Origin: a virus
IMG/VR virus record: IMGVR_UViG_3300047300_000712
Location: 1-21,225 of that record
Length of the DNA stretch: 21,225 bases
Direction: 5' to 3' (one strand)
Shown here: positions 8,204 through 20,969 of the stretch, piece after piece
Layout of the letters: every line of letters starts with the position of its first letter
Numbering within the stretch: the first letter of the stretch is position 1
Notes under the pieces: generated by a model
What the model was told of the DNA's origin: nothing
Seen by the model: the letters and a program-made list of their open reading frames with translations, nothing else
Databases searched by the model: none
Position numbers and translations under genes: made by a program

Positions 8204-9817
8204 ATGACAACAAGAATCAAACTACGTAGAGATACAGCCGCAAACTGGACAACAACAAATCCAGTATTAGCCTTAGGTGAGCCCGGCTTAGAAACAGACA
8301 CACGCAAAGTCAAGTATGGTGACGGCGTCACAGCATGGAACTTACTAGACTACTCAGTTAGTGCTGAAAGCGACTCTAATTTTAGCCACAGTTTTAACGA
8401 TGGCGTAAACGATAACGTTTGGCGCATGGTTACTGTACAAGGTGCTAAAGAGTTTACTTTTGAAACTCAAGGTTACAAAGATTTTGCTCTTACATTAACT
8501 GCCGGTCAAGTGGCAAATATTGGTGACGGTTACATAACAATCACAGCCGCCGATGTTCCAGAAATGGATGCCGTATGGTTAAACTATCAAAGAGAAAACA
8601 ACGTTTATTTTTACTTACAAAGTGAGTGGGACCAAAACAACCTAAATAGTTATTTCAACTACATGGAAAACCCATCAGAAGGCGTATATCAACTATTCCC
8701 AAGTCAGCCTTTTGCTGAAGGCGACAAAGTTGTTATCAAGTATTATACTGAAGGCACAACATACCAGCACAGTAACTACGACACTTGGAGCACGTTCTTA
8801 CCTGATGTTAGCGAAACAACTGCAACTAATACTGTAACTATCAGTTTAAATGAGTATACATGGTTAGGGTCGGGCGCAGGATCTGCTCGTGAGGCACTAT
8901 TAAACAGCGCCTACTTTGGCAAACACGCTATCTATTTTCAAACGGACAGCAACAACAATGGCGACCAACGCAACATCACAAACGTAGTTGACAACGAAGA
9001 TGGTACAGTCACTCTTACATTCGACGGTGCCGCACAACAGTCTAAAACTACAGAAGAAGTTTCTTTCTCTTTCCAAGCTGTTGACACAAAAGCAGACGAT
9101 GGCTATTTGACAATTCCAAAATCGGCCGCTCCAACATTCGCAAGTGATTGTATCTACGGTTATATGACAGGAACTGAAACTAACAAGTACACAGGTGGAG
9201 CTCAACGTAGTGGTTATTTAACTATCAACGGGGGAGAACCTATTAGCTTTTACTGGTACCAAAACGGTGATGGCATAACTCAGTATACATTGAATATGCA
9301 AAGTAACGTATGGTATAACCAAGGTGATGTTATTGCTGTAACTTACTACAAGAGCACTACTGAATTTGAATTAAGTATTTGGCATCCAAATACTGCTAGT
9401 TCTAACTGGAACAACGGATACCGTTGGTTTGACTGGAAAGACGACCTAGGTCAAGAATATGCACCAGGAGTTGGTAACGGTGTGGTCGGCGGCAATGGCC
9501 AATACTACATGCGAACTTATCGTGAAGCAATTGGCAACTGGAGTGCTCAATCAAGAACACTGGCTAGCCAATTTGGTTGGAGTGGTTTAGGTAACTATCA
9601 ACGCACACCATATGATCCGTATACAAACGATAGTGTAAGCGATTGGGGCAAGGACACTGACAACTGCTACCCAATGTATTCTTTTGACGAGTACGGTATT
9701 GTGTTTAACGGCACCAGCACCTACTATGATAAAAGCGTAACATACAAAGTTCGCATCATGTACAAGATGGAACTAATGATTGGCGAAGAAGACGGTTACG
9801 GCTGGTTCGACTGCTAA
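8204..9817 (+). CDS. Second tail fibre/adhesin with Mtd-type N-terminal domain, 537 residues
   Basis: Residues 1-50 (IKLRRDTAANWTTTNPVLAL, then GEPGLETDTRKVKYGDGVTAWN) are a textbook match to the N-terminal domain first described in the Bordetella phage major tropism determinant, used to attach fibres to the virion. The remainder is beta-rich and aromatic and seems to hold two related domains: one around GDGYITI...WLNYQ...GDKVVIKYYTEGTTY and another around DDGYLTI...FYWYQN...GDVIAVTYYKSTTEF. The final part is Tyr/Trp/Asn-rich (WNNGYRWFDWKDD, NGQYYMRTYREA). I see no template/variable repeat pair or reverse transcriptase, so no diversity-generating retroelement is supported here. It probably binds host surface glycans or proteins, as inferred from architecture and neighbours. 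Confidence 0.75.
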   Translation: MTTRIKLRRDTAANWTTTNPVLALGEPGLETDTRKVKYGDGVTAWNLLDYSVSAESDSNFSHSFNDGVNDNVWRMVTVQGAKEFTFETQGYKDFALTLTAGQVANIGDGYITITAADVPEMDAVWLNYQRENNVYFYLQSEWDQNNLNSYFNYMENPSEGVYQLFPSQPFAEGDKVVIKYYTEGTTYQHSNYDTWSTFLPDVSETTATNTVTISLNEYTWLGSGAGSAREALLNSAYFGKHAIYFQTDSNNNGDQRNITNVVDNEDGTVTLTFDGAAQQSKTTEEVSFSFQAVDTKADDGYLTIPKSAAPTFASDCIYGYMTGTETNKYTGGAQRSGYLTINGGEPISFYWYQNGDGITQYTLNMQSNVWYNQGDVIAVTYYKSTTEFELSIWHPNTASSNWNNGYRWFDWKDDLGQEYAPGVGNGVVGGNGQYYMRTYREAIGNWSAQSRTLASQFGWSGLGNYQRTPYDPYTNDSVSDWGKDTDNCYPMYSFDEYGIVFNGTSTYYDKSVTYKVRIMYKMELMIGEEDGYGWFDC

Positions 9818-9818
9818 T

Positions 9819-10493
9819 ATGATAACAAAACGCCCTGCCAACACACGGGGCGTCATTGATAAGAAAGGTTCTATATTAAGTTATAGGACCTTTACTTTTC
9901 AAGCCTACATGAATTTCAAATACATGAACTTCGGCGACCTTGAAACAATCAATGACGATCGTGTTTATCCCGGATACCATGTTGGACGACATTTACACAC
10001 AGACCGAGAAATCTTTGGTTATGTAGTAGATGGTCCTTGCTATCACACTGATGATACAAATGGGCACATAGATATACCTAGTGGTGCAGTTCAGCGTATG
10101 TGTGCCGGTTCAGGTATGTTTCACAGTGAAGGCAACGGATCGGATAAACCAATACGCTACTTACAGTTATGGATACGCAGTAAAGTAAAAGGTGCAACAC
10201 CGGTTTATGGGTGGCATCAGTTTACTCGAGCCGATAAGCTGAACCGTTTTTGCGACATTACCGCCACGTTACCGATTCGGGCAGATGCTCGTTTCTTGGC
10301 CGGTATTTTTACACAAGCCTTTAACTACGCACTTAATCCTGTACGCAAATACTATGTGTATGTTGTCCGTGGCGCAGGCACCGTAAATGGTCAGGAGTTT
10401 ATCGAAGGTGATGGCTTCGCATACACAAATGAGTCAGAGATCAACTTAACCGTAACAGAAGAATCTGAAGTCATATTATTTGATTTACCTTAG
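9819..10493 (+). CDS. Pirin-like bicupin protein, 224 residues
   Basis: The pirin signature is clear. HLH (58-60) precedes REIFGYVVDGPCYHTD, followed by PSGAVQRMCAGSGMFHSEGN. The metal ligands known for E. coli YhhW (two His, a later His and a Glu) correspond to H58, H60, H102 and E104, all present. A second, weaker cupin half follows (RGAGTVNGQEFIEGDGFAYT). Family members bind iron or another metal and some have quercetin dioxygenase activity in vitro; cellular substrates are mostly unknown. I chose the ATG at 9819, just after the fibre stop, rather than an upstream in-frame TTG at 9780 inside the fibre gene, because the family N-terminus fits; there is no strong ribosome site. Its place between fibre and replication genes is odd. 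Confidence 0.85.
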   Translation: MITKRPANTRGVIDKKGSILSYRTFTFQAYMNFKYMNFGDLETINDDRVYPGYHVGRHLHTDREIFGYVVDGPCYHTDDTNGHIDIPSGAVQRMCAGSGMFHSEGNGSDKPIRYLQLWIRSKVKGATPVYGWHQFTRADKLNRFCDITATLPIRADARFLAGIFTQAFNYALNPVRKYYVYVVRGAGTVNGQEFIEGDGFAYTNESEINLTVTEESEVILFDLP

Positions 10494-11584: not shown

Positions 11585-13033
11585 ATGGCAACAAAAGAAT
11601 ATTCGACAGATTTACAAAAACTATTCCTAGAAATGATGTTGCATGATGCACAAAGCTTCGTGCGAGTTTCTAACATTTATAATCCTGAAAACTTTGATCG
11701 CAGTATCCGTGCGGCTGCTGAGTTCATTAAGACGCACAGTAACGACTACAAAACACTACCTACGTTTGATCAAATCAAAGCAGTTACAGGTGTAGAACTA
11801 AAGCCATTGCCGGACTTGGGCGAAGGGCATAACGACTGGTTCTTAGCAGAGTTTGAATCTTTTACCAAGCGCCAGGAACTGGAACGTGCTATTCTTAAGG
11901 CGGCAGACATGTTGGAAGCTGGAGAATTTGATCCAGTAGAAAAACTAATCAAAGACGCAGTACAGATCAGTTTGCAAAAAGACATGGGTACTGACTACTG
12001 GGCCGACCCTGCTGATCGTATTAACAGGTACTATAATTCCGGCGGACAAGTTAGCACAGGTTGGCCACAGCTAGACAGATTGTTGTACGGTGGATTTAGC
12101 CGTGGTGAACTAAACATCTTTGCAGGTGGATCGGGTTCAGGTAAGTCGCTGGTTATGATGAACATTGCACTGAGCTGGCTGCAAATGGGTCTAAGCGGTG
12201 TTTACATTACCCTAGAACTTAGTGAAGAACTAACCAGTTTGCGTACTGATGCAATGCTTACAGGCATGGGCACTAAAGACATCCGCAAGGATATTGACAC
12301 CACTACTCTAAAGGTTAAGCTGGTCAGTAAGAAGGCAGGACAGTATCGTATTAAAGCGTTGCCTGCACAAAGCAACGTAAACGATATTCGTGCTTACTTA
12401 AAAGAAGTACAAATTCAAACAGGCATTAAAGTTGACTTTGTTATGGTTGACTATTTGGACTTGGTTATGCCTGTTTCTGTTAAAGTTAACCCCAACGACC
12501 AGTTTATTAAGGACAAGTACGTAGCAGAAGAATTGCGTAACTTAGCAAAAGAACTGGGCATCTTGTTAGTAACAGCTTCGCAGTTGAACCGTAGTGCAGT
12601 TGAAGAAGTTGAATTTGACCATTCGCATATTGCAGGTGGTATTTCTAAGATTAACACAGCAGATAACGTATTTGGTATCTTTACAAGTCGTGCAATGAAA
12701 GAGCGTGGCAAGTATCAAATTCAATGTATGAAATCGCGCTCTAGTACAGGTGTTGGACAAAAAATTGATCTGGAATACAACATTGAAACCATGCGTATTA
12801 GTGACCCGGGTATTGACGAAAACAGTTCGGGTGGGCCACCTAAGGTTTCTAGCATTATGAGTCAAATTAAGAACAAAGCAGTAGCCGAAGCCGCAGATGC
12901 AGTAGAAGGCGGCCCTGCTAAGTTTGAACGTGCAACAGGCACTCCAGTCTGGGAACAAGGGCCCAAAGTAACTGGCGAAGTACAAAGCACTAAGCTTAAG
13001 AGTATGTTAGCGGGACTTAAGAAGTCAGAATGA
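11585..13033 (+). CDS. 41: Replicative DNA helicase, T4 gp41/DnaB-like, 482 residues
   Basis: The N-terminal helical domain (1-130) is followed by a RecA-type ATPase domain with Walker A GGSGSGKS (181-188), a VYITLELSEE strand carrying the DnaB-type Glu, and Walker B FVMVDYLDL (285-292). ASQLNRSA and FTSRAMKERGKYQIQCMKSRSS complete the superfamily 4 helicase pattern. It forms a hexamer on the lagging strand and unwinds DNA 5' to 3'. I chose the ATG at 11585; an in-frame TTG two codons earlier overlaps the primase stop and is less likely. The C-terminal 60 residues are Ala/Lys/Ser-rich and may be a flexible partner-binding tail. The stop overlaps the next gene as ATGA. Confidence 0.92.
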   Translation: MATKEYSTDLQKLFLEMMLHDAQSFVRVSNIYNPENFDRSIRAAAEFIKTHSNDYKTLPTFDQIKAVTGVELKPLPDLGEGHNDWFLAEFESFTKRQELERAILKAADMLEAGEFDPVEKLIKDAVQISLQKDMGTDYWADPADRINRYYNSGGQVSTGWPQLDRLLYGGFSRGELNIFAGGSGSGKSLVMMNIALSWLQMGLSGVYITLELSEELTSLRTDAMLTGMGTKDIRKDIDTTTLKVKLVSKKAGQYRIKALPAQSNVNDIRAYLKEVQIQTGIKVDFVMVDYLDLVMPVSVKVNPNDQFIKDKYVAEELRNLAKELGILLVTASQLNRSAVEEVEFDHSHIAGGISKINTADNVFGIFTSRAMKERGKYQIQCMKSRSSTGVGQKIDLEYNIETMRISDPGIDENSSGGPPKVSSIMSQIKNKAVAEAADAVEGGPAKFERATGTPVWEQGPKVTGEVQSTKLKSMLAGLKKSE

Positions 13034-13992
13034 CCTGCTTTGATGCGTTTAAGAATCTAAACATTATTAATCAGGGCAACACACTATCTATAGGCCCATG
13101 TTGTGTGTCTCCTGCTAATCGTGTTGAGGTAATTGATTTTGTACAAGATGCTTATCTAAAAGCCGTTAGGCGTTCTTGGGAAAATAACACATTCCCCCCT
13201 GCTTGTTTAAATTGTAAAAATGCTGAAAAAAATAAGCAAGATAGTAGGCGAATCGGAGTCAACCGATGGTACGAGCAAAATGGCTATAACAACACCGACG
13301 TTGAGCTAATTAGAATTGACTATTGGACCGGTAATACTTGCAATTTGAGATGCATAATCTGCGGCCCTGAAAACAGTAGTAGTTGGCAACAAGAGCTAAA
13401 CATTCCCACTAAACAGCAAGTAGTTAACAGATACTGGAATAACATAGATATCAGCAAACTCAAGTATGTACACTTCAACGGTGGCGAGCCGTTACTAAGC
13501 AAAGAGCACGTGGAATTTTTACACGCAATTCCTAACAAATCTCAAGTTCACTTAAATTATAATACTAACGCTACGGTGCGTCCAACAGCAGAACTTCAGT
13601 TATTGTGGGAAGAATTTAAGATAGTTCAATTAGACTTTAGTATAGATGATGTTGGGTCTCGTTTTGAGTACCAGAGATTTCCTGCAAAATGGCACGAAGT
13701 TGTTGACAATTTACAGTGGTTTGTTAAAACTGCACCAGTAAATTGCATATTCTCAGTTAACACCACAGTAAGTATTCTAAATCAACATAACCTAGTGAAT
13801 TTATCAGCGTGGCTACAGGATAACTTTGCTGTAAATCGTTTAGGGGATAGGATAGAACACAGGCAACAACCTGTACTAGGTCCTGTTGCTACTATGGGCA
13901 ACAACAAACTGCTAGAATACCTAGATGAGTGTGATAAAAGGCGCGGAACTAGCTGGCGTACAGTATTTCCAGAACTAACCAAATACATATAA
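13030..13992 (+). CDS. Radical SAM enzyme with N-terminal twitch-type cysteine cluster, 320 residues
   Basis: The radical SAM motif C104-x3-C108-x2-C111 (TCNLRCIIC) and the downstream SAM-binding FNGGEPLL (149-156) are present, with LDFSIDD and FSVNTT further along the barrel. Four extra Cys precede the barrel: C24-C25 (IGPCCVSP) and C59-x2-C62 (PACLNCKNAE). They are positioned to hold an auxiliary Fe-S cluster at the N-terminus, whereas SPASM/twitch clusters usually lie at the C-terminus. I recall that N-terminal-twitch radical SAM proteins form a recognised family in marine phages. The substrate is unknown; peptide, tRNA or nucleotide modification are all possible. It is coupled to the helicase by ATGA and so likely sits on the early transcript. 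There is no precursor peptide gene nearby. Confidence 0.85.
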   Translation: MTCFDAFKNLNIINQGNTLSIGPCCVSPANRVEVIDFVQDAYLKAVRRSWENNTFPPACLNCKNAEKNKQDSRRIGVNRWYEQNGYNNTDVELIRIDYWTGNTCNLRCIICGPENSSSWQQELNIPTKQQVVNRYWNNIDISKLKYVHFNGGEPLLSKEHVEFLHAIPNKSQVHLNYNTNATVRPTAELQLLWEEFKIVQLDFSIDDVGSRFEYQRFPAKWHEVVDNLQWFVKTAPVNCIFSVNTTVSILNQHNLVNLSAWLQDNFAVNRLGDRIEHRQQPVLGPVATMGNNKLLEYLDECDKRRGTSWRTVFPELTKYI

Positions 13993-13995
13993 ATA
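13988..13995 (+). promoter_or_regulatory. Perfect T4 late promoter TATAAATA
   Basis: TATAAATA followed by T overlaps the stop codon of the radical SAM gene and lies 21 bases before the TTG start of the next gene. It is the closest match on the plus strand to the T4 late consensus recognised by gp55-type sigma factors. It probably drives the whole run of overlapping genes from 14017 to 20941. Confidence 0.7.
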
Positions 13996-14016: not shown

Positions 14017-14286
14017 TTGCGTAAAAATACCCGCAGTATCTTAGAAGAGCTGTCTAGCATGAGTGTTCACAAAGACCGTGAAAGTCTTATTGAATCCCGT
14101 GCCAGCAATGTCATTGCCGGTGCTATTAATCTGATCAACTATATTAAAGAGCATTACGATGCCGAAACAGCAGACGAGCTAGAGCGCCGCTTGCTAAACA
14201 GTATCCGTGGTCAAGATCCAGCAAAATTCACACGCAAAGTGCGTAGTCTCCGTGAGAACGCAAATAATAAAAGAGACCTAGAATGA
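14017..14286 (+). CDS. Small helical late protein, 89 residues, TTG start
   Basis: The protein is almost wholly alpha-helical and highly charged: RSILEELSSM, then KDRESLIESRASNVIAGAIN, then AETADELERRLLNSI, and a basic end (TRKVRSLRENANNKRDLE). There is no membrane segment and no enzyme motif. I recall similar small helical proteins in marine T4-like phages without a known role. Being first in a late operon and overlapping the start of the giant Ala-rich gene (ATGA) suggests a head or core assembly role, but that is inference. The TTG start is supported by the upstream CGGAG and the late promoter. Confidence 0.7.
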   Translation: MRKNTRSILEELSSMSVHKDRESLIESRASNVIAGAINLINYIKEHYDAETADELERRLLNSIRGQDPAKFTRKVRSLRENANNKRDLE

Positions 14287-17200
14287 AATTTGATCACATC
14301 ATTACCCCAGAACTACGCTTACTTGAAAGCCTACAAAGAGGCGCAGATCCGCTAACACGTAAAAATCTGCAGATCATGCACGAGAACTTTGTTGTTCCGT
14401 ACAGCAAGTATCTAAAGAGTCAGTTTACACTAATGGAAGCAGAAATGACCGCTGACCAAATTCAACAGGTATTCGGACATGCAGAACGTATTGCTAGTGC
14501 AGGCGGTGACAATAAAACTATGCTAGGCAAAGGCGCAGATGCCGCAGGAGCAGCCGCTGGTGCAATTGGCCAAGGTGCAGTTGCCGCAGGCAAAGGAGCC
14601 GCGGACTTAGCAGTTAAGGGCGCCAAGGGTGCAAAAGATCTAGCCGCTAAACTGGTTCCAGACGCAGTTAAGAAAAAGTTTGAAGCAAGCTTGCCAGCAC
14701 CCGATGCAGGTCCAGTTGAAGGCTTCGAACAAAAAGCCACACAAGCTATTGCAAACATTGAAGATCCAAAGGCTAAACAAAGCCTAATGGATAAGATTAA
14801 GATTGGTTTAAAAAATCCAGTTACACAGCAACTTATTATGGCTGGCGTGTCTGGTATTGCTGGTATTATTGCTAGTACAGCCACAGCAGGATTAGGCGGT
14901 TATGCAGGTGCAGCCGCAGCCGGTGCTATTACCGGTTCGTTACTAGGCGGTATTAATGCTAAGTTGCAAGGTGGTTCTTGGAAAGATGCAGGCAAAGCTG
15001 CTCTTAAAGGTGCCGCAGTTGGTGCTACTGCTGGTTTAATTGGTAAAGGTGTTACAGACGTTGCAAGCGCAGGGATGGATGCATATAACTCACACCAACA
15101 GCAACAGGCTACAGCAGGCGAAGACCCAATGAAAGCCGACAACGATTTATATGGTCCAGGTGGCGCCGCTGATGAAAAAATATTGCCAGTGACTGGTAAA
15201 GCACCGGGTGCAAGTCTGTCAGTGGGACAACAACTTCCGGATGGGGAAGTTATCAGTGGATTAGATTCAAGCAATCCAAACGCCGCTGTTACTATTACAA
15301 AACCAGACGGTGGAACATATACAGTTAGTCGTGATACCGCACACAACATGACCGGACAGCAAGGTATTAGCAATCAAGCTACTGCTGGGGGTCCTGTAAC
15401 AGGTGGAGCATCAAGTGATCCGATGGCAGGGGTTAGCAACACACCACCAGCAGCACCGGCACCGGCACCAAGTCAAAACGTTGGCGACTCAGATTTTAGC
15501 CAAGCTGAAATTAATGCTCCAATTCCGGTAGATCCTAAGGTTCAACAATTAGCAAGTCAAGAAGCTGCCAAATACGGTCGTTCGACTCCTAACCAAGATG
15601 ATATCCGAGCCGCACAAACAATGGCGCAAGGCAAGCCCGCAGGTAATTATACACCAACAGGCAATGCCTATGTTGATCATTTAAACCAGGCAGCAGCAAA
15701 TGGAATTCGTCTACGTGGCATCCAAAAACAAAGTCGTGTTAACACCGGTACTCCAGTTATTGAATACATTGATCGCGAGCTAACAGCACGTATGTGGATC
15801 TTACACGAATCTGTAGGCAAGCCACGTGGTAATGTACACTTAACAGAAGCTGGTATTGGCGACATGTTTAAGAAAGCTGGCAACTGGTTAAAGACCAAAG
15901 CTGGTAACCTAACAAACAAAGTAACAGCAGACAAGCTACAGCAAGCCTGGACTAAAGCAGGTAGCCCAACTGACTCAGGTCAAGTTGCAGCCATTATGGT
16001 GCAAGCAGGTGTTCCACAGGACAGCATTGATCAGATCTTTAAGAACATGGGATTGCCTGATGGTTCTAGTAAACCAACAGCGGCGCCAGCTCCAGCTGCC
16101 GCACCCGCTAAGGCAGCAGGACCTAAACAAGGTCTAATTGGTAAAGCCGCAGGCGCAGTAGGTGGTGCAATTGGTAGTGTTAAAGGCGCTATTGCAGGTG
16201 CCAAAGATGCGTTTGCACAAGGTAAAGAAACAGGCTTTGATACATCACGTGCTAACCAAGCAGGTGATGCAGTTGGCGCAACAGGCGAAGCTAATCCTTA
16301 TGCTAAAGGCGCACAGCAACCAGCACCGGGACAAGCTGAGCCAGCAGGCACTCCACAACAAACAGGTGGACAAACTCCTGCACAAGGACAAGCCGCACCA
16401 GCAGGTGGAGCACAACAACCAGCACAAGCCGCCGCAGGTGGTGCACCAGCAGGCACTCCACAACAAACAGGTGGACAAGCTCCTGCACAAGGACAAGCCG
16501 CACCAGCAGGTGGAGAAACACCTGATGATGATGATAAAGAAAAACCGAACAAATATTTTGATCCAAAAGGACTAGGGGACTACGCCACAGGTCTTGTTAA
16601 AGATGCAGAAGGTGCAATGAAAGCCGGTGTTGGTATGGGCACAGCTGGACAGAGTTTAATGCAGACAGGGTCTAATCCAGCTGATCCTAAGAATAAGGAT
16701 CAGAAAAAGACTCCCGACTCGGTAACTATTAAAGATGCTCAAGGCATTGAACATTCGTACAAGAAAGTTGGTCAGCAATGGTTTGACAAAGACAACAAGC
16801 CAGTTAATACTGCACAGGCAGCAATGCTTGATCAACATGCGAAACAACAAGCGGCATTAGGCGCAGAAGCACCAGCACCAGAACCAGAAAAGAAACTAGA
16901 TAACCCTAAAGATCCAAAGACAGGCAAGCCAATTGATCCTAAGGCGCAAGCAGCCGCAGGTGGGGCAGCAGGTGGAGCACAACAACCAGATAAAATGTTA
17001 GCTAATCCTAAAGATCCAAAGACAGGCAAGCCAATTGATCCTAAGGCGCAAGCAGCCGCAGGTGGAGCACAACAACCAGCACAAGCAGCCGCAGGTGGAG
17101 CACAACAACCAGCACAACCAGCACAACCAGCACAAGCAGCCGCAGGCCAAAAGCCAGCATATGATACACAAACTGGTGTAGCAAACGATGCGATGAAGGC

Positions 17201-18104
17201 TGTTAATAAAGCAGCAGGCAAGGCAGCGGCACCAAACGGATTTAACACACAAACTGGGGAACCTAATCCTGCACCGGGACAATCAGAGACAGGCGAAGTT
17301 TCTCCAGAATACCGAGCACGCCAAAAAGCAGTAATGACACCTGGTACTCCGGAGCATTCTGCTATACAAGATCAAATTATTGCCAATGCTGACGAAAATA
17401 AATTACGAGTATTTGCAGCCAGTGCCCAGACTCCTGGTACAAAAGAAAAAGCCGCAGCCGAATTAAAGAGACGAGGCTTATCGGTTGAGGAACCAGCAGC
17501 CGCAGGTGGAGCACAACAGCCTGCACAAGCACAAAGCCCAGAAGAAATTCGTAAAGCTAAACAAGCTGGTGCCGCTAAGACAGCGCAAGATCAAATGGCA
17601 GCAAATGCAGCCGCACCAGCAGGACAGGCAGCACCAGCAGCCGCAGCCGCTAAAGCACACACTGGTGGTAAGGTTGCTGGCCAAGTAAGCCAAACTCCTA
17701 ATGCTATCCGTAAGCGTGAACAACGTGCAGCCGCAGCCGCACAAAAGGCAGCGCCAAACGATGTTATGGCACGTATGGCTAAACAACTTGCGCCTGCACA
17801 ACCAGCGGCCACACCAAACTTTGGTCAACAGCAAACTGGATATGCTAGCGTTAAGATGAATGCCCCAACTGGTATTCCGCAACAACCAGCAGTACAACCT
17901 ACTACTGGTGCTAAGGCAGTTCCTGCACAACAACCAGCGGCAGCACCAGCGGCAGCACCAACAGCTTCTGCACAAGCAGATGCAGGCAAGCCAGGCTTCT
18001 TGCAAAGCAAGATTAAAGGCTCGCAAGTCCCTGCTAAACAACCAGAAATGGCCGGCATGGACTTTAGCGCAATGCTAGCACGTAAGGCTAAGATTAGACT
18101 ATGA
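14283..18104 (+). CDS. Giant Ala/Gln/Pro-rich late protein, probable virion or head-core protein, 1273 residues
   Basis: The N-terminal 75 residues are helical. Next come Ala/Gly-rich amphipathic or hydrophobic helices (GVSGIAGIIASTATAGLGGY near 180-225) and long disordered stretches of Ala, Gln, Pro and Gly with DNA-level repeats. Two related modules are visible: residues 50-75 (LMEA, then TADQIQQVF) and 520-590 (LTEA, then a helix and TADKLQQAWTKAGSPTDSG, ending VPQDSIDQIFKNMG). Both begin with an LxE-A sequence, the form cleaved by the T4 prohead protease. The C-terminus is basic (IRKREQRAAAAAQKAA, LARKAKIRL). No enzyme motif is visible. It overlaps both neighbours by 4 bases (ATGA). An internal head, scaffold or ejected protein fits best; a tape measure is less likely because of the disorder and location. 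Confidence 0.7.
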   Translation: MKFDHIITPELRLLESLQRGADPLTRKNLQIMHENFVVPYSKYLKSQFTLMEAEMTADQIQQVFGHAERIASAGGDNKTMLGKGADAAGAAAGAIGQGAVAAGKGAADLAVKGAKGAKDLAAKLVPDAVKKKFEASLPAPDAGPVEGFEQKATQAIANIEDPKAKQSLMDKIKIGLKNPVTQQLIMAGVSGIAGIIASTATAGLGGYAGAAAAGAITGSLLGGINAKLQGGSWKDAGKAALKGAAVGATAGLIGKGVTDVASAGMDAYNSHQQQQATAGEDPMKADNDLYGPGGAADEKILPVTGKAPGASLSVGQQLPDGEVISGLDSSNPNAAVTITKPDGGTYTVSRDTAHNMTGQQGISNQATAGGPVTGGASSDPMAGVSNTPPAAPAPAPSQNVGDSDFSQAEINAPIPVDPKVQQLASQEAAKYGRSTPNQDDIRAAQTMAQGKPAGNYTPTGNAYVDHLNQAAANGIRLRGIQKQSRVNTGTPVIEYIDRELTARMWILHESVGKPRGNVHLTEAGIGDMFKKAGNWLKTKAGNLTNKVTADKLQQAWTKAGSPTDSGQVAAIMVQAGVPQDSIDQIFKNMGLPDGSSKPTAAPAPAAAPAKAAGPKQGLIGKAAGAVGGAIGSVKGAIAGAKDAFAQGKETGFDTSRANQAGDAVGATGEANPYAKGAQQPAPGQAEPAGTPQQTGGQTPAQGQAAPAGGAQQPAQAAAGGAPAGTPQQTGGQAPAQGQAAPAGGETPDDDDKEKPNKYFDPKGLGDYATGLVKDAEGAMKAGVGMGTAGQSLMQTGSNPADPKNKDQKKTPDSVTIKDAQGIEHSYKKVGQQWFDKDNKPVNTAQAAMLDQHAKQQAALGAEAPAPEPEKKLDNPKDPKTGKPIDPKAQAAAGGAAGGAQQPDKMLANPKDPKTGKPIDPKAQAAAGGAQQPAQAAAGGAQQPAQPAQPAQAAAGQKPAYDTQTGVANDAMKAVNKAAGKAAAPNGFNTQTGEPNPAPGQSETGEVSPEYRARQKAVMTPGTPEHSAIQDQIIANADENKLRVFAASAQTPGTKEKAAAELKRRGLSVEEPAAAGGAQQPAQAQSPEEIRKAKQAGAAKTAQDQMAANAAAPAGQAAPAAAAAKAHTGGKVAGQVSQTPNAIRKREQRAAAAAQKAAPNDVMARMAKQLAPAQPAATPNFGQQQTGYASVKMNAPTGIPQQPAVQPTTGAKAVPAQQPAAAPAAAPTASAQADAGKPGFLQSKIKGSQVPAKQPEMAGMDFSAMLARKAKIRL
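16341..16515 (+). repeat. 70-base direct repeat, period 105, in the Ala/Gln-rich gene
   Basis: Copies at 16341-16410 and 16446-16515 differ at one base by eye and encode PAGTPQQTGGQ, then PAQGQAAPAGG. The 105-base period is in frame, so unequal exchange would add or remove 35 residues without a frameshift. Confidence 0.9.
16905..17065 (+). repeat. 59-base direct repeat, period 102, in the Ala/Gln-rich gene
   Basis: Copies at 16905-16963 and 17007-17065 are identical by eye and encode PKDPKTGKPIDPKAQAAAGG. A shorter word coding GGAQQPAQA recurs near 16403, 17061, 17094 and 17505. The period is in frame (34 codons). Confidence 0.9.
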
Positions 18105-18859
18105 TGCACATTTATGAAGGCGGCAATATCTTTGGAGACGGGGATATTGCAAAGGAATATGTTGCAGGCGTTGTAAAAACAGTACAACGCGATATGCCTG
18201 CGGGCATCAAAGCAATTCCTGATATTGGCTCCGCTGGTTACAAGGCAGCAAGCGGCGATATGGACTTGTTTATTGACGCTGGCGCACTAATGCAAAAGTT
18301 TCAAGTAGCAGACGACAAAGCGGCTAAGCAAGCATTAGAAACATTTATGCAAGCCAAAGGCTACAAGACTAAAATCTCTGGACGCAATGTACACATTGAA
18401 GTTCCGTATGCTACTCCTGAGGGACAGCGTACAGTACAAGTAGACTTGATGGTTATCCCTGATGCAGAAATAGTAGCACCTTATCACCAACATGGACCAC
18501 GTGGCATGTACGACCAACCAGGTTTCAAAGGAGCCCACAACTTTATTCTAATGAACAGCATTGCTAAACATCTAGGATTAAAGTTTGATGCATTTGGCGG
18601 CAAGCTAATGCGCCGCGATGACAATACTGTTGTTGGCCGTACACGTGATGAAGTTGCTAAGATACTATTAGGGCAAGCAGCCACAGCTGATGATTTAAAT
18701 AGTGTTGCCTCTATGGTAGCGGCACTAAAGAACGATCCAGATCGAGACAGTAAACTAGCACAAGCAAGACAAGATGCGGCCAAGGGCATTATTACCATGC
18801 CCGAAGCAGTAGCAGAAGGTTCTGCTAACTGGTTTAGAAAGTATACTAGCCTTCTATGA
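18101..18859 (+). CDS. Pol-beta-fold nucleotidyltransferase-like protein 1, 252 residues
   Basis: The catalytic core pattern is visible: G43-S44 in IGSAGYKAASGDMDLFID with D53-x-D55, and a third Asp D115 in a strand (RTVQVDLMVIP). This is the GS...DxD...D layout of the nucleotidyltransferase superfamily that includes tRNA CCA-adding enzymes and antitoxin/toxin transferases. Later segments (HGPRGMYDQPGFKGAHNFIL, then VGRTRDEVAKILLG) resemble conserved stretches of a marine phage family that I recall but cannot name. The first residues, MMHIYEGGN, contain IxE followed by G. Two adjacent ATGs are possible starts. It overlaps both the preceding and the following gene as ATGA. The target (RNA end, protein or small molecule) is unknown. 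Confidence 0.75.
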   Translation: MMHIYEGGNIFGDGDIAKEYVAGVVKTVQRDMPAGIKAIPDIGSAGYKAASGDMDLFIDAGALMQKFQVADDKAAKQALETFMQAKGYKTKISGRNVHIEVPYATPEGQRTVQVDLMVIPDAEIVAPYHQHGPRGMYDQPGFKGAHNFILMNSIAKHLGLKFDAFGGKLMRRDDNTVVGRTRDEVAKILLGQAATADDLNSVASMVAALKNDPDRDSKLAQARQDAAKGIITMPEAVAEGSANWFRKYTSLL

Positions 18860-19884
18860 AAATATTTGAAATACTACGTGAAGGTGGTTGGGACACAACA
18901 GCTACACAAGGCACAGTTATTACACCGCAGGTTGCAAAAGCCGCTATGGCGCAGATGCAACGTTTTGTTGCGGACTTTAACCGTTACCGTGCTGACCGTC
19001 AGCGTGACCCAGTTGAGTTAGGTAAACCACTAGGCTCTACAGCTTATCACGAAATAGACCCGGAAGATAAAATCTATGGGGACATTGATATTCAAATGAT
19101 TGCTCCGGCAATTGAAGGACTGTCGTTTACACAGTTCACAGCCGCTTACAATAAAGCCGCTGATGAATTTGTTAGAGAAGCTAAACCTTCCTATGTACAC
19201 CCAACAGAAAGCAAGCTAGGACATCCTATTTTGCAAGTTGGCCGTGATGCATACGTGCAAGTAGACTTTATGTGGCACCCAGAAGATTTACGTGACTGGG
19301 GTGCTGGCCGTGCAACACCCGAACACAACCTAAAGGGCATGTTAACAGGCAATATGTACAGCGTACTAGGTGAACTGTTGGATATGAGTATTCAACATGC
19401 TGGCGTACAACTAAAGACACAAAACGGACAGCAAGTTCCGTTTAGTAAACAAAAGGGTGTGGAAGTACAGACTATCACACGTGACCCGGGAACATTTGTA
19501 CTAGAGATTTTCAAGTACGAATACGAAACCATAGTAAATCGTCCTGTAAACAGTCAAACATATATTGACCCATTACTGCAAAAGTTTCCAGGCAATGACT
19601 TAAATGACGTTAAGATCAGCAAACTAGTTAACAGCGTTAAAGGCCTAGCACGTAGTTTTGAAAAGAACGAAATGTTCGGCCAAGGCAACTTGTCTAACTA
19701 CGAAAACGCACGTGACTTTATACAAACGTTCTGGAAACGCTACGAAGAAAAAGCTATGGCGGACGTAGCAAATAAAAAGCGCGACAAGGCACAAACACCT
19801 GATGCTATTGCTCGTGCCCAACAGGACCGTGAGAAGATCCTAAGTGGATTAGCAACAGTTAAAGGATACTTCAGTGGAACTTAA
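18856..19884 (+). CDS. Pol-beta-fold nucleotidyltransferase-like protein 2, 342 residues
   Basis: LGSTAYHEIDPEDKIYGDID gives G60-S61 and D76-x-D78 after a long loop; VQVDFMW supplies D137. These are the expected catalytic residues of the nucleotidyltransferase fold. The N-terminus MKIFEILREGGW has LxE followed by G and resembles the T4 internal-protein leader MKTYQEFIAEA in length and pattern. The C-terminal 150 residues are helical and charged (KRYEEKAMADVANKKRDK), perhaps a nucleic-acid or partner binding part. It differs strongly in sequence from the preceding transferase-like gene, so the pair is not a recent duplication. The start overlaps the previous stop as ATGA, and the end overlaps the next gene by 11 bases. 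Substrate unknown. Confidence 0.75.
   Translation: MKIFEILREGGWDTTATQGTVITPQVAKAAMAQMQRFVADFNRYRADRQRDPVELGKPLGSTAYHEIDPEDKIYGDIDIQMIAPAIEGLSFTQFTAAYNKAADEFVREAKPSYVHPTESKLGHPILQVGRDAYVQVDFMWHPEDLRDWGAGRATPEHNLKGMLTGNMYSVLGELLDMSIQHAGVQLKTQNGQQVPFSKQKGVEVQTITRDPGTFVLEIFKYEYETIVNRPVNSQTYIDPLLQKFPGNDLNDVKISKLVNSVKGLARSFEKNEMFGQGNLSNYENARDFIQTFWKRYEEKAMADVANKKRDKAQTPDAIARAQQDREKILSGLATVKGYFSGT
19861..19866 (+). promoter_or_regulatory. Ribosome binding site AAAGGA supporting a GTG start
   Basis: AAAGGA lies 7 bases before GTG at 19874, inside the end of the preceding gene. It is the reason for choosing this non-ATG start. Confidence 0.65.
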
Positions 19885-20941
19885 TTTTATTCAAACACTA
19901 TTTGAAGCCGGAGAAGGCCCACGTATTCCTCATCCAGAGGACAGTATCTTTGCTGGCACAGATGCGGCACAAAAAATGATTGCGGCACTACAGGAAGTTA
20001 TTGCTAACCCTGGCACAGGTAGTATTAAATGGGACGGTGGTATTGCGCTATTCTTTGGATACGATCCAACAGGACAGTTCTTTATCAATGACAAGTACAT
20101 GCCTGAAGGTTTCTATGCACACAGTCCTGCTGACTGGCAAAAGTACGACACAGAAATGAAAAAGTCTAAAGTTGCACGTACAGACTTGTATCCACAGCTA
20201 GCAGCAATTTGGGAAGGCATGAAAGCGTCTGTAACAGAGAAATCTGTGTTTAAAGGCGACTTAATGTGGACAGGTGAACTACAGCCAGTAGAAGGCAAGT
20301 TTGTGTTTAAGCCTACTACAGTAGAATACCGTGTGCCAGTGAACAGCTCACTGGGCAAACTAATTGCAGGCAAAGCTGGCGGCATTGTTGTGCATCAGAA
20401 AGACGGAGCTCCATGGGACGGTAAGTCAGGTCTGCAAAACGCAGGCAACGTTGCTATTATTAGCCCTAAAGCAGGTGTTACATTTACACTAAAGAATCCC
20501 GTTAAGCTAGTTAACGATGCTAAAAAAGCAGCCAGTAATAAAGTCATAGATGAGTTTCTTGCAGGACTTGCAGGTGTAGTTAAGAGCTCTATACAGACTT
20601 ACATGAACAAGAAGATTACTAAGCAGACAAACGAGCCTATTGAAAAGTGGCTGGAAAAAGCTCTTAGTAAGAAACAGTACGAATTAGTAGTTACAGGTGT
20701 CAACGGCAATGACGGCTATATTATGCAAAATTCTGCAGGATTAACTGCACTTTTTGCCGCCTGGAATGCAATTTATGTGCTAAAAGATAACCTATGTCAA
20801 CAGCTAGAGCCGCAAGTGCAGGGCTTTGAACAGTGGACAGGTGGACAGCAAGCAGGCGAAGGGTTTGTATTCCCTACTAGCCAGGGCTTGATTAAGTTAG
20901 TAAACAGGGCGGGATTTGGGGCCGCACATTTCAACAAATAA
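19874..20941 (+). CDS. Polynucleotide ligase/RNA ligase-superfamily-like protein, 355 residues
   Basis: Motifs of the covalent nucleotidyltransferase superfamily appear in order. IKWDGGIALFFG (51-62) matches motif I K-x-D-G with K52 as the likely AMP-accepting Lys. FKGDLMWTGEL (126-136) sits where motif III is expected. AGEGFVF (327-333) resembles motif IV (E-G-x-V), and LIKLVNR (339-345) motif V. A helical insert (about 215-320) separates the middle and C-terminal motifs, unlike compact ligases. The leader ends in TLFEAGEG, an LxE followed by A. It starts at GTG with a good AAAGGA. It ends the late operon. A role in nucleic-acid end joining or adenylylation is inferred from motifs only; I recall the family as an uncharacterised one in marine T4-like phages. 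Confidence 0.7.
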   Translation: MELNFIQTLFEAGEGPRIPHPEDSIFAGTDAAQKMIAALQEVIANPGTGSIKWDGGIALFFGYDPTGQFFINDKYMPEGFYAHSPADWQKYDTEMKKSKVARTDLYPQLAAIWEGMKASVTEKSVFKGDLMWTGELQPVEGKFVFKPTTVEYRVPVNSSLGKLIAGKAGGIVVHQKDGAPWDGKSGLQNAGNVAIISPKAGVTFTLKNPVKLVNDAKKAASNKVIDEFLAGLAGVVKSSIQTYMNKKITKQTNEPIEKWLEKALSKKQYELVVTGVNGNDGYIMQNSAGLTALFAAWNAIYVLKDNLCQQLEPQVQGFEQWTGGQQAGEGFVFPTSQGLIKLVNRAGFGAAHFNK

Positions 20942-20950
20942 CCCTATTAT

Positions 20951-20967
20951 TTTATCGAGATGATAAA
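20951..20967 (+). other. Short inverted repeat overlapping a late promoter
   Basis: TTTATC and GATAAA, separated by GAGAT, form a 6-base inverted repeat directly after the ligase-like gene. The right arm is the start of the GATAAATA late box. It is too AT-rich and lacks a U-run, so I do not call it a terminator. Confidence 0.4.
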
Positions 20968-20969
20968 TA
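20962..20969 (+). promoter_or_regulatory. T4-type late promoter box GATAAATA
   Basis: GATAAATA followed by T, sharing the ATAAATAT core. It stands 39 bases before the next ATG, leaving a longer leader than the other late boxes. The leader contains a small hairpin and AAAGGA (20996-21001) 7 bases before the start. Confidence 0.65.

Follow-up and report, generated by a model that had tools for sequence, protein, structure and literature searches.

Capsid-targeting-like leaders on three neighbouring proteins, two predicted nucleotidyltransferases and one ligase-like, in a giant T4-like phage

The internal head proteins IPI–IPIII of phage T4 carry a capsid targeting sequence (CTS) that is cut by the prohead protease gp21. 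A second T4 example is the ADP-ribosyltransferase Alt, an injected enzyme with a six-residue propeptide that is cleaved at ITE-6 (PMC5694885). Processing of the T4 CTS needs residues 8 and 10, corresponding to P3 and P1 (PMC9026906). Two further systems are relevant here: the polyvalent proteins, many-domain chains in which Pol-beta nucleotidyltransferase (NTase), GNAT and ParB enzymes are predicted to be injected (PMC5512222), and the repair sets of jumbo phages that comprise an RNA ligase and an RlaP-type NTase (PMC7824862). The set of proteins that a large phage delivers together with its DNA is for the most part unknown and has so far had to be determined by virion proteomics. Apart from a T4 review, we found no paper on capsid targeting in cyanophages.

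The DNA studied here (the window, being positions 1–21,225 of IMG/VR record IMGVR_UViG_3300047300_000712) comes from a giant T4-like phage. It encodes three consecutive proteins, here NT1, NT2 and LIG (Table 1), whose genes form a single run with stop/start overlaps in the ORF list. That these lie on a transcript behind a perfect late promoter, as originally stated, is supported at the sequence level by the exact TATAAATA site and the overlaps. ORF 14283, just upstream, is also LxE-led, so that the run is one of four such genes rather than three. A TAAATA-type core occupies the same position in 31 relatives, nine of which have TATAAATA exactly, and the 89-aa protein that opens the run has homologues in PA5oct, Phosso, Atu_ph07 and other phages. 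Late expression can be regarded as met on promoter sequence only, there being no expression data. The gene order NT1-(NT2)-LIG and the late promoter are conserved across relatives. NT2 is missing from 23 of the 57 loci that have both NT1 and LIG, and two of three genes inserted inside the cassette in relatives have no LxE leader. Neither a protease gene nor head genes are present in this 21-kb fragment.

Table 1. Features of the cassette and its surroundings
Feature	Position	Strand	Basis or remark
Late promoter, T4-type, TATAAATA	13988..13995	+	Exact match; 21 nt upstream of ORF 14017
89-aa ORF (14017), TTG start	14017..14286	+	phrog_11854 virion structural protein family, E 1.4e-18; first gene of the run
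1273-aa Ala/Pro/Gln-rich protein (ORF 14283)	14283..18104	+	LxE-type sites; directly precedes NT1
Predicted propeptide of ORF 14283, residues 1-52	14283..14438	+	LLE15/S, MHE34/N, LME52/A
Internal LxE pair of ORF 14283, LHE509/S and LTE522/A	15807..15848	+	Motif scan
NT1, 252-aa Pol-beta-type nucleotidyltransferase	18101..18859	+	Homologue alignment; PA5oct/Phosso/Atu_ph07 NTase match
NT1 leader MMHIYE	18101..18118	+	Predicted cut E6/G7; E6 invariant in homologue alignment
NT2, 342-aa Pol-beta-fold nucleotidyltransferase	18856..19884	+	Homologue alignment, structure model
NT2 leader MKIFEILRE	18856..18882	+	Predicted cut E9/G10; E9 invariant; residues 1-12 pLDDT <50
LIG, 355-aa DUF6267 protein	19874..20941	+	PF19782 E 1.9e-28
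LIG leader MELNFIQTLFE	19874..19906	+	Predicted cut E11/A12; residues 1-15 pLDDT <50
GATAAATA, late-promoter-like, one mismatch	20962..20969	+	Ahead of next gene, 21010

The proteins begin MMHIYE/GGN, MKIFEILRE/GGW and, from a GTG start, MELNFIQTLFE/AGEG, with the Glu at residues 6, 9 and 11, respectively; the (I/L)-x-E followed by G or A that had been pointed out on all three (IYE/G, LRE/G and LFE/A) reads as described. In-frame stops lie no more than 2, 3 and 8 codons upstream of the NT1, NT2 and LIG starts, which excludes longer starts. All three meet the T4-type criterion of an N-terminal propeptide of ~6–20 residues ending in [LI]xE and, in AlphaFold models of NT2 and LIG, a disordered leader precedes a confident fold.

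Conservation of the leaders was assessed in dereplicated IMG/VR relatives using the motif [ILV]-x-E. It is kept in 31 of 33 NT1 homologues and 18 of 19 NT2 homologues (the remaining one is truncated), and LxE is kept in 28 of 29 LIG homologues, one of these judged by eye. The [ILV] at P3 and Glu at P1 are fixed, the latter being encoded by both GAA and GAG, and P2 is free, with 7 (NT1), 12 (NT2) and 6 (LIG) different residues found there. Leader length ranges from 4 to ~20 aa. The proposed alignment of leaders in related phages thus came out as anticipated: [ILV]xE-(G/S/A) is kept, while leader length and the remaining leader positions are variable. Homologues lacking the leader had been named as grounds for refutation, and here some caution remains. 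The motif is kept in most homologues but the distantly related NTases of the jumbo phages PA5oct, Phosso and Atu_ph07 and the DUF6267 protein of S-WAM1 are leaderless; a leader or site is also wanting in one NT1 (L077) and two LIG variants (L052 and L058). The three NTases are homologous to NT1 (hhalign 96.6%, E 6e-10). Leaderless NT1 homologues start at the residue just after the leader position, and a search for longer starts that would add a leader to the PA5oct, Phosso and Atu_ph07 proteins found none. Virion entry of these proteins must therefore work otherwise.

Evidence for a suitable protease comes from a 288-kb relative, which encodes an S77 prohead protease and a gp23 with MLAE/N at the propeptide boundary. 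Protease and gp23 are found also in a 64-kb relative, PA5oct, Phosso, Atu_ph07 and Melnitz. In PA5oct, the leaderless and distant NT1 homologue gp253 is a virion protein by ESI-MS/MS; the ligase-like gp256 is not listed among the detected virion proteins. Virion location is thus supported for one leaderless, distant homologue only, with no proteomics for the present lineage.

Both NT1 and NT2 meet the GS ... DxD ... D catalytic signature of Pol-beta enzymes, the invariant residues in the homologue alignments being GS43-44, D53, D55 and D115 in NT1 and GS60-61, D76, D78 and D137 in NT2. The NT2 model (pLDDT 89.3, pTM 0.85) has the Pol-beta palm fold, with a Foldseek E of 4.9e-4 to 7rbm_A and a VIA Z of 10.3 over 187 aligned residues against 1huo_A. 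At the sequence level neither family matched PDB or Pfam, Pfam scans of their members returned no NTase family, tblastn of NT1 and NT2 against 50,697 phage records gave no match and profile comparison detected no homology between the two.

LIG is a clear member of DUF6267 (100.3 bits to PF19782 against a cut-off of 27), a family without assigned function on which we found no paper. Its invariant residues (K52-W-D-G, E329-G330 and K341) include what we assign by eye as ligase motifs I (KxDG), IV (EGxx) and V (K), present in that order. The best structural neighbours are all ATP-dependent ligases, with a VIA Z of only 5.9–7.3, and the best Foldseek E is 0.15, a weak match on its own. No match to Pfam RNA_ligase (PF09414) was seen at E up to 1, nor did profile comparison detect homology to the PA5oct-type KxDG protein. 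LIG is a predicted covalent nucleotidyltransferase/ligase, for which there are no substrate data; both this ligase-like activity and the packaging leader are newly proposed for DUF6267.

The ORF 14283 product starts MKFDHIITPELRLLE/S and has matches to [ILVM]xE[AGSN] at residues 15, 34, 52, 509 and 522 only, three of them within the first 52 residues, where 0.10 would be expected. Genes at this position in relatives carry MKIN(E/D)(I/V)(I/V)xE leaders. The protein is probably a prohead core protein or internal polyprotein, and the pair at 509 and 522 might possibly mark a cut between its two halves.

In relatives, leaders of this type also head unrelated proteins. One is a homologue, identified by eye, of PA5oct gp246, and PA5oct gp333, whose gene lies between portal and protease, carries the leader type itself; gp246 and gp333 are both virion proteins by ESI-MS/MS. 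The leader is carried as well by an array of proteins in Atu_ph07 (gp053–gp062) and by DUF6267 proteins in Melnitz and C48C1. Some homologues have an insert of ~30 to 120 aa separating the leader from the body, with a second [LV]xE at its end, as in the GNAT-like inserts of L032 and L066 (RLWE/GGWD and PVQE/GGWD), and L034 has an NT1-LIG fusion with an internal NLLE/AD. Such fusions were seen only in relatives (L032, L034, L066 and L084), the window having one enzyme per ORF. The T4-type criterion of a separable leader on a variable folded body is therefore met.

Taken together, the conservation and modularity of the leaders (shared between families and found on LxE-bounded inserts and fusions), the S77 protease and LxE capsid site of the relative, the disorder of the modelled leaders and the invariant catalytic residues give good support to the original prediction of prohead import and trimming. 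As the tag in relatives keeps the residues that the phage's own head protease would need, the enzymes are probably packed in the head. We consider T4-type packaging and leader trimming of NT1, NT2 and LIG likely, physical cleavage being inferred from sequence. A single late promoter would drive synthesis of the structural protein, the polyprotein-like core protein, NT1, NT2 and LIG late in infection. Through their leaders the three enzymes would dock into the prohead core, the S77 (gp21-type) protease would cut after [I/L/V]-x-E and the mature enzymes would stay inside the head. T4 Alt and the internal proteins provide the analogy for the step that would follow, entry into a new host together with the DNA. 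There the two nucleotidyltransferases and the ligase-like enzyme might become active immediately; their likeliest targets are nucleic-acid ends, such as tRNA or DNA ends that the host has damaged and that they would repair. The substrate, like import, cutting and ejection, is an inference, with cutting and injection leaning on T4 precedent; end repair, taken alone, is a tentative assignment resting on an inferred substrate.

Might the leaders be trimmed by the prohead protease and the proteins nevertheless be core or structural parts that work in assembly, for instance on packaged DNA ends or nicks, without being ejected? A Pol-beta enzyme and a ligase could also work together to fill gaps and seal nicks, the cassette has structural genes around it and LxE sites occur in the upstream polyprotein too. 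We nonetheless think this unlikely, since T4 leader proteins that remain whole after trimming (the IPs and Alt) are ejected (PMC5694885), and since variable presence, exemplified by the frequent absence of NT2, is more typical of host-interaction cargo than of factors essential for assembly.

An N-terminal motif that has nothing to do with prohead cleavage and is kept for structure, belonging to the enzyme fold or binding a partner, would fit the conserved flanks of the leader and the virion association of leaderless gp253. It is made improbable by the disorder of both modelled leaders, the occurrence of the motif on three families and on unrelated proteins, the inserts between leader and body and the retention of the body in leaderless homologues. 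What speaks for chance alone is the shortness of the motif, together with the fact that this finding was picked from many. With internal windows or internal Met of the 288-kb relative as the baseline, [IL]xE[GA] with Glu at residues 6–15 arises at 1.1% per protein and three leaders in a row at ~1e-6 (selected after the fact); with the motif kept in dozens of divergent homologues around a free middle residue, coincidence is scarcely credible.

The cassette is novel cargo for an already known targeting system. The likeness to IPI–IPIII lies in the short [LI]xE-ending leader, late expression, variable cargo and an S77 protease in the lineage; here, however, the cargo is nucleotidyltransferases and a ligase-like protein, with GNAT-like and polyprotein forms in relatives, and processing has not been seen experimentally. 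The NT1 leader MMHIYE equals the Alt propeptide in length, whilst the enzyme classes differ. Where polyvalent proteins are single chains, these are separate polypeptides with their own leaders, and no MPTase or MuF domains were seen in Pfam scans. As in the jumbo-phage repair sets, a Pol-beta NTase adjoins a KxDG ligase-like enzyme, but LIG lacks the RNA_ligase match and packaging leaders are present.

If the leader code holds beyond T4 and its close relatives, genome sequence would be enough to list packaged enzymes; judging by the cargo, entry-time nucleic-acid end processing may be a delivered function, and DUF6267 gains a testable activity and location. More speculatively, T4-like jumbo and marine phages could share the leader as a general, portable code for packaging, here marking an ejected end-repair kit (two nucleotidyltransferases and a ligase) that fixes host-inflicted tRNA or DNA damage at entry, so that the ejected proteome, including polyproteins cut into several enzymes in the head, becomes readable from sequence. 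We regard this as a doubtful extension at present.

Some candidate patterns were rejected. LxE N-termini as a genome-wide habit of the 288-kb relative were not upheld (5.4% at the first ATG versus 3.2% at internal ATG), and enrichment of strict leaders among MS-detected PA5oct proteins is weak (6/93 versus an internal-Met baseline of 2.9%). T4 Alt is also cut C-terminally, and NT1 has VAE/G at residue 239 in its closest relatives; the site occurs only in these and a few others, so it is not a general NT1 trait.

The 21-kb IMG/VR fragment encodes a DnaB-type helicase whose top match is that of the jumbo phage PA5oct (46% identity), followed by those of Phosso and Atu_ph07. As originally predicted, the genes for two nucleotidyltransferase (NTase)-like proteins (NT1 and NT2) and a ligase-like protein (LIG) lie behind a perfect late promoter, which heads a run of genes whose neighbours overlap stop to start. 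A TAAATA-type core occupies the same position in 31 relatives, being exactly TATAAATA in nine, and gene order is NT1-NT2-LIG at 34 loci and NT1-LIG at 23. Amid the replication genes, the fragment also encodes a pirin-like protein (9780-10493) and a radical-SAM protein (13030-13992), unusual metabolic genes for a phage to carry.

Late promoter and downstream gene run
Feature	Position or start	Remark
Late promoter TATAAATA	13988-13995	Perfect match
Small virion structural protein	14017	phrog_11854 match
Ala/Pro/Gln-rich protein, 1273 aa	14283	
NT1	18101	Protein of the finding, last three in run
NT2	18856	Protein of the finding, last three in run
LIG	19874	Protein of the finding, last three in run

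The predicted N-termini (predicted cuts shown by arrows) were likewise confirmed: MMHIYE↓GGN (NT1), MKIFEILRE↓GGW (NT2) and MELNFIQTLFE↓AGEG (LIG), longer starts being ruled out by upstream stops. In a 288-kb relative encoding NT1 and LIG, [IL]xE[GA] with its Glu between residues 6 and 15 is seen in 1.1% of internal windows or after internal Met, a per-protein rate that puts three consecutive cases at ~1e-6, with selection not yet allowed for. That LxE N-termini might be a general habit of this genome was rejected (5.4% genome-wide versus a baseline of 3.2%).

Homologues of the three proteins were gathered from IMG/VR and counted after dereplication. The expectation that the site would be kept in leaders of varying length was met: [ILV]xE is found in 31/33 NT1 homologues (of the other two, one is truncated and one lacks the leader), 18/19 NT2 homologues (the other truncated) and 28/29 LIG homologues (including ILNE↓AA, which the script missed), in leaders of five (MKLTE↓SGN) to about 20 residues. 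P3 is L, I or V and P1 is Glu throughout, with both codons used, whilst P2 is filled by seven (NT1), 12 (NT2) or six (LIG) different residues. Judged from sequence, this is the pattern expected of cleavage sites. Processing of the T4 capsid targeting sequence needs residues 8 and 10, equivalent to P3 and P1 (PMC9026906), and T4 Alt is shortened by six residues, the cut falling at ITE-6 (PMC5694885). The search patterns contained the NT1 and LIG leader strings and were thus biased towards leader-bearing matches, although many of the leaders retrieved are unlike the query strings. Counting against the packaging reading, the leader is missing from PA5oct-type NTases, from the L077 NT1 protein, from the L052/L058 LIG proteins and from the S-WAM1 DUF6267 protein, and relatives have three extra genes within the cassette of which only one bears it. 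A VAE↓G site thirteen residues from the NT1 C-terminus (residues 239-240; 18815-18820), shared by few sequences besides the nearest relatives, brings to mind the LTE-619 site of Alt, where gp21 makes its C-terminal cut.

The leader is modular. In the AlphaFold models, pLDDT falls below 50 over NT2 residues 1-12 (model mean 89) and LIG residues 1-15 (model mean 91). PA5oct, Phosso and Atu_ph07 have NT1 homologues without a leader; these start M-(S/G)-G-x-A-F, and the alignment of their profile to NT1 opens at G7, the first residue past the predicted cut. One leader form, M(K/R)Ix(D/E)(I/V/F)(I/V)xE, heads unrelated proteins: NT2, some NT1 and LIG proteins, a 140-aa protein that by eye looks like PA5oct gp246, and several polyprotein-position genes. 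Some NT2 homologues carry inserts of ~30 to 120 aa between leader and body, closed by a second site (LLGE↓, WLGE↓, PVKE↓, GLYE↓, RLWE↓ or PVQE↓GGWD); two inserts match GNAT acetyltransferase models, one with E 1e-4 and the other weakly. At L034:1129-2964, a single ORF joins NT1 to LIG and keeps the LIG leader LDFLQNLLE↓AD at the junction; this may be a true polyprotein, or the result of a frameshift in assembly, which is not excluded.

Variants of this arrangement include the NT2 of L025/L040/L041, where leader MKINEVITE and PVKE↓GGWD are separated by a small Lys-rich segment with a Cys pair, CWKNYKQYGMKKKGNKMVPDC, which by analogy with the T4 internal peptides would come off as a short basic peptide. 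At L084:2876-5191, NT1 continues into another domain, of unknown family, and DLQE↓AKG lies close to where the two meet; at L027:2756-3469 a third Pol-beta-like protein, leaderless (GSMANYNWTKFSDFDIHVV), lies between NT1 and NT2.

A candidate protease comes from the 288-kb relative, whose genes include one for an S77 prohead protease (PF03420, E 2.2e-25) and one for a gp23-type capsid protein. Capsid propeptide boundaries, positioned by eye from knowledge of T4, read MLAE↓NATAG in this relative, FLVE↓NASAG in PA5oct, PLME↓TATAG in Phosso and FLSE↓AAPT in Melnitz, and the specificity deduced from the leaders matches these putative sites.

In PA5oct, gp333, a 73-aa protein encoded between portal (gp334) and head protease (gp331), begins MKINDIITE↓GYY and, like gp246 (MKIKDILVE↓S), is marked ESI-MS/MS. 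At the corresponding place downstream of the helicase, PA5oct, Phosso and Atu_ph07 encode a Pol-beta NTase and a KxDG protein; the PA5oct virion list includes the NTase (gp253) and not the KxDG protein. Strict leaders are found on 6/93 MS-detected PA5oct proteins, no clear enrichment, which counts against packaging by leader.

The 1273-aa protein upstream has five LxE-type sites (15, 34, 52, 509 and 522), three of them within the first 52 residues, where whole-protein shuffles would give 0.10; with shuffling confined to the first 60 residues, P was 0.0004 (strict pattern) and 0.017 (broad pattern). In polyprotein position at L045:4876-8001 is a 1042-aa gene with leader MKINNIITE↓S and a LysM domain (E 2e-11), possibly a packaged cell-wall-binding module.

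As to function, the Pol-beta signature GS...DxD...D is invariant in 28 NT1 and 19 NT2 sequences, and structure comparison pairs NT2 with DNA polymerase beta (Foldseek E 4.9e-4; VIA Z 10.3, 187 residues aligned). LIG is a DUF6267 member (E 1.9e-28) in whose homologue alignment (A4) K52-W-D-G, E329-G and K341 are invariant, reminiscent of ligase motifs I, IV and V. Its top structural matches are RNA and DNA ligases, though no Z exceeds 7.3; the ligase reading thus depends on fold and motifs jointly. For sets of phage RNA ligases and NTases, end repair has been put forward (PMC7824862); by analogy, nucleotide addition plus joining by NT1, NT2 and LIG might serve end repair, an inference that we hold only tentatively and would not favour.

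In the mechanism that we think probable, the cassette would be transcribed late, the leader-bearing proteins would dock in the prohead core, the S77 protease would cut after [ILV]xE, and the trimmed enzymes would stay in the head and be delivered along with the DNA. Late transcription and cutting have sequence support, whilst docking, retention and delivery are inferred from the T4 model. Polyvalent proteins with Pol-beta NTase, GNAT, ART and ParB domains were earlier predicted to be injected cargo (PMC5512222), so packaged enzymes are not in themselves new; a search of open-licence papers gave no account of the leader code other than in T4, T4 relatives and phages of the phiKZ type, and none of the NT1/NT2/LIG cassette.

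Leader-like N-termini are also seen elsewhere. Ten consecutive Atu_ph07 proteins (gp062-gp053; L009:20467-29218), mostly about 250-270 aa, each start M(R/K)W-x-(Q/D)-L-(T/N/I)-E, then A, S, K, N or G, and share a PLYRGM/YRGM motif reminiscent of ADP-ribosyltransferases; Pfam gave no match for the two tried. They make up an expanded family whose members are probably effectors packaged in the head, and their position agrees with a virion-protein cluster at CDS 31-76 (PMC6102473). Kyanoviridae neighbours (Melnitz, C48C1 and S-WAM1; L002:7920-17418, L003:3470-14585 and L004:7176-8231) have T4-like leaders (among them MQGFKTFLSE↓A, MKKFSEIIE↓A on a cytidyltransferase-like protein, MLSFKQFVSE↓V, MKKFKQYIDE↓G and MRFRQFIIE↓A), and the leader code may therefore extend to cyanophage-type phages. 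Further leader-bearing proteins of the 288-kb relative (L106:12427-13877 and L109:16926-17981) include a DUF6934-like protein (MFIADLFE↓S; below cut-off), a ParB/sulfiredoxin-like protein (MRAQEFVTE↓S; by eye) and a DUF6321 protein with a weak DUF5872 match (MRADEFITE↓N).
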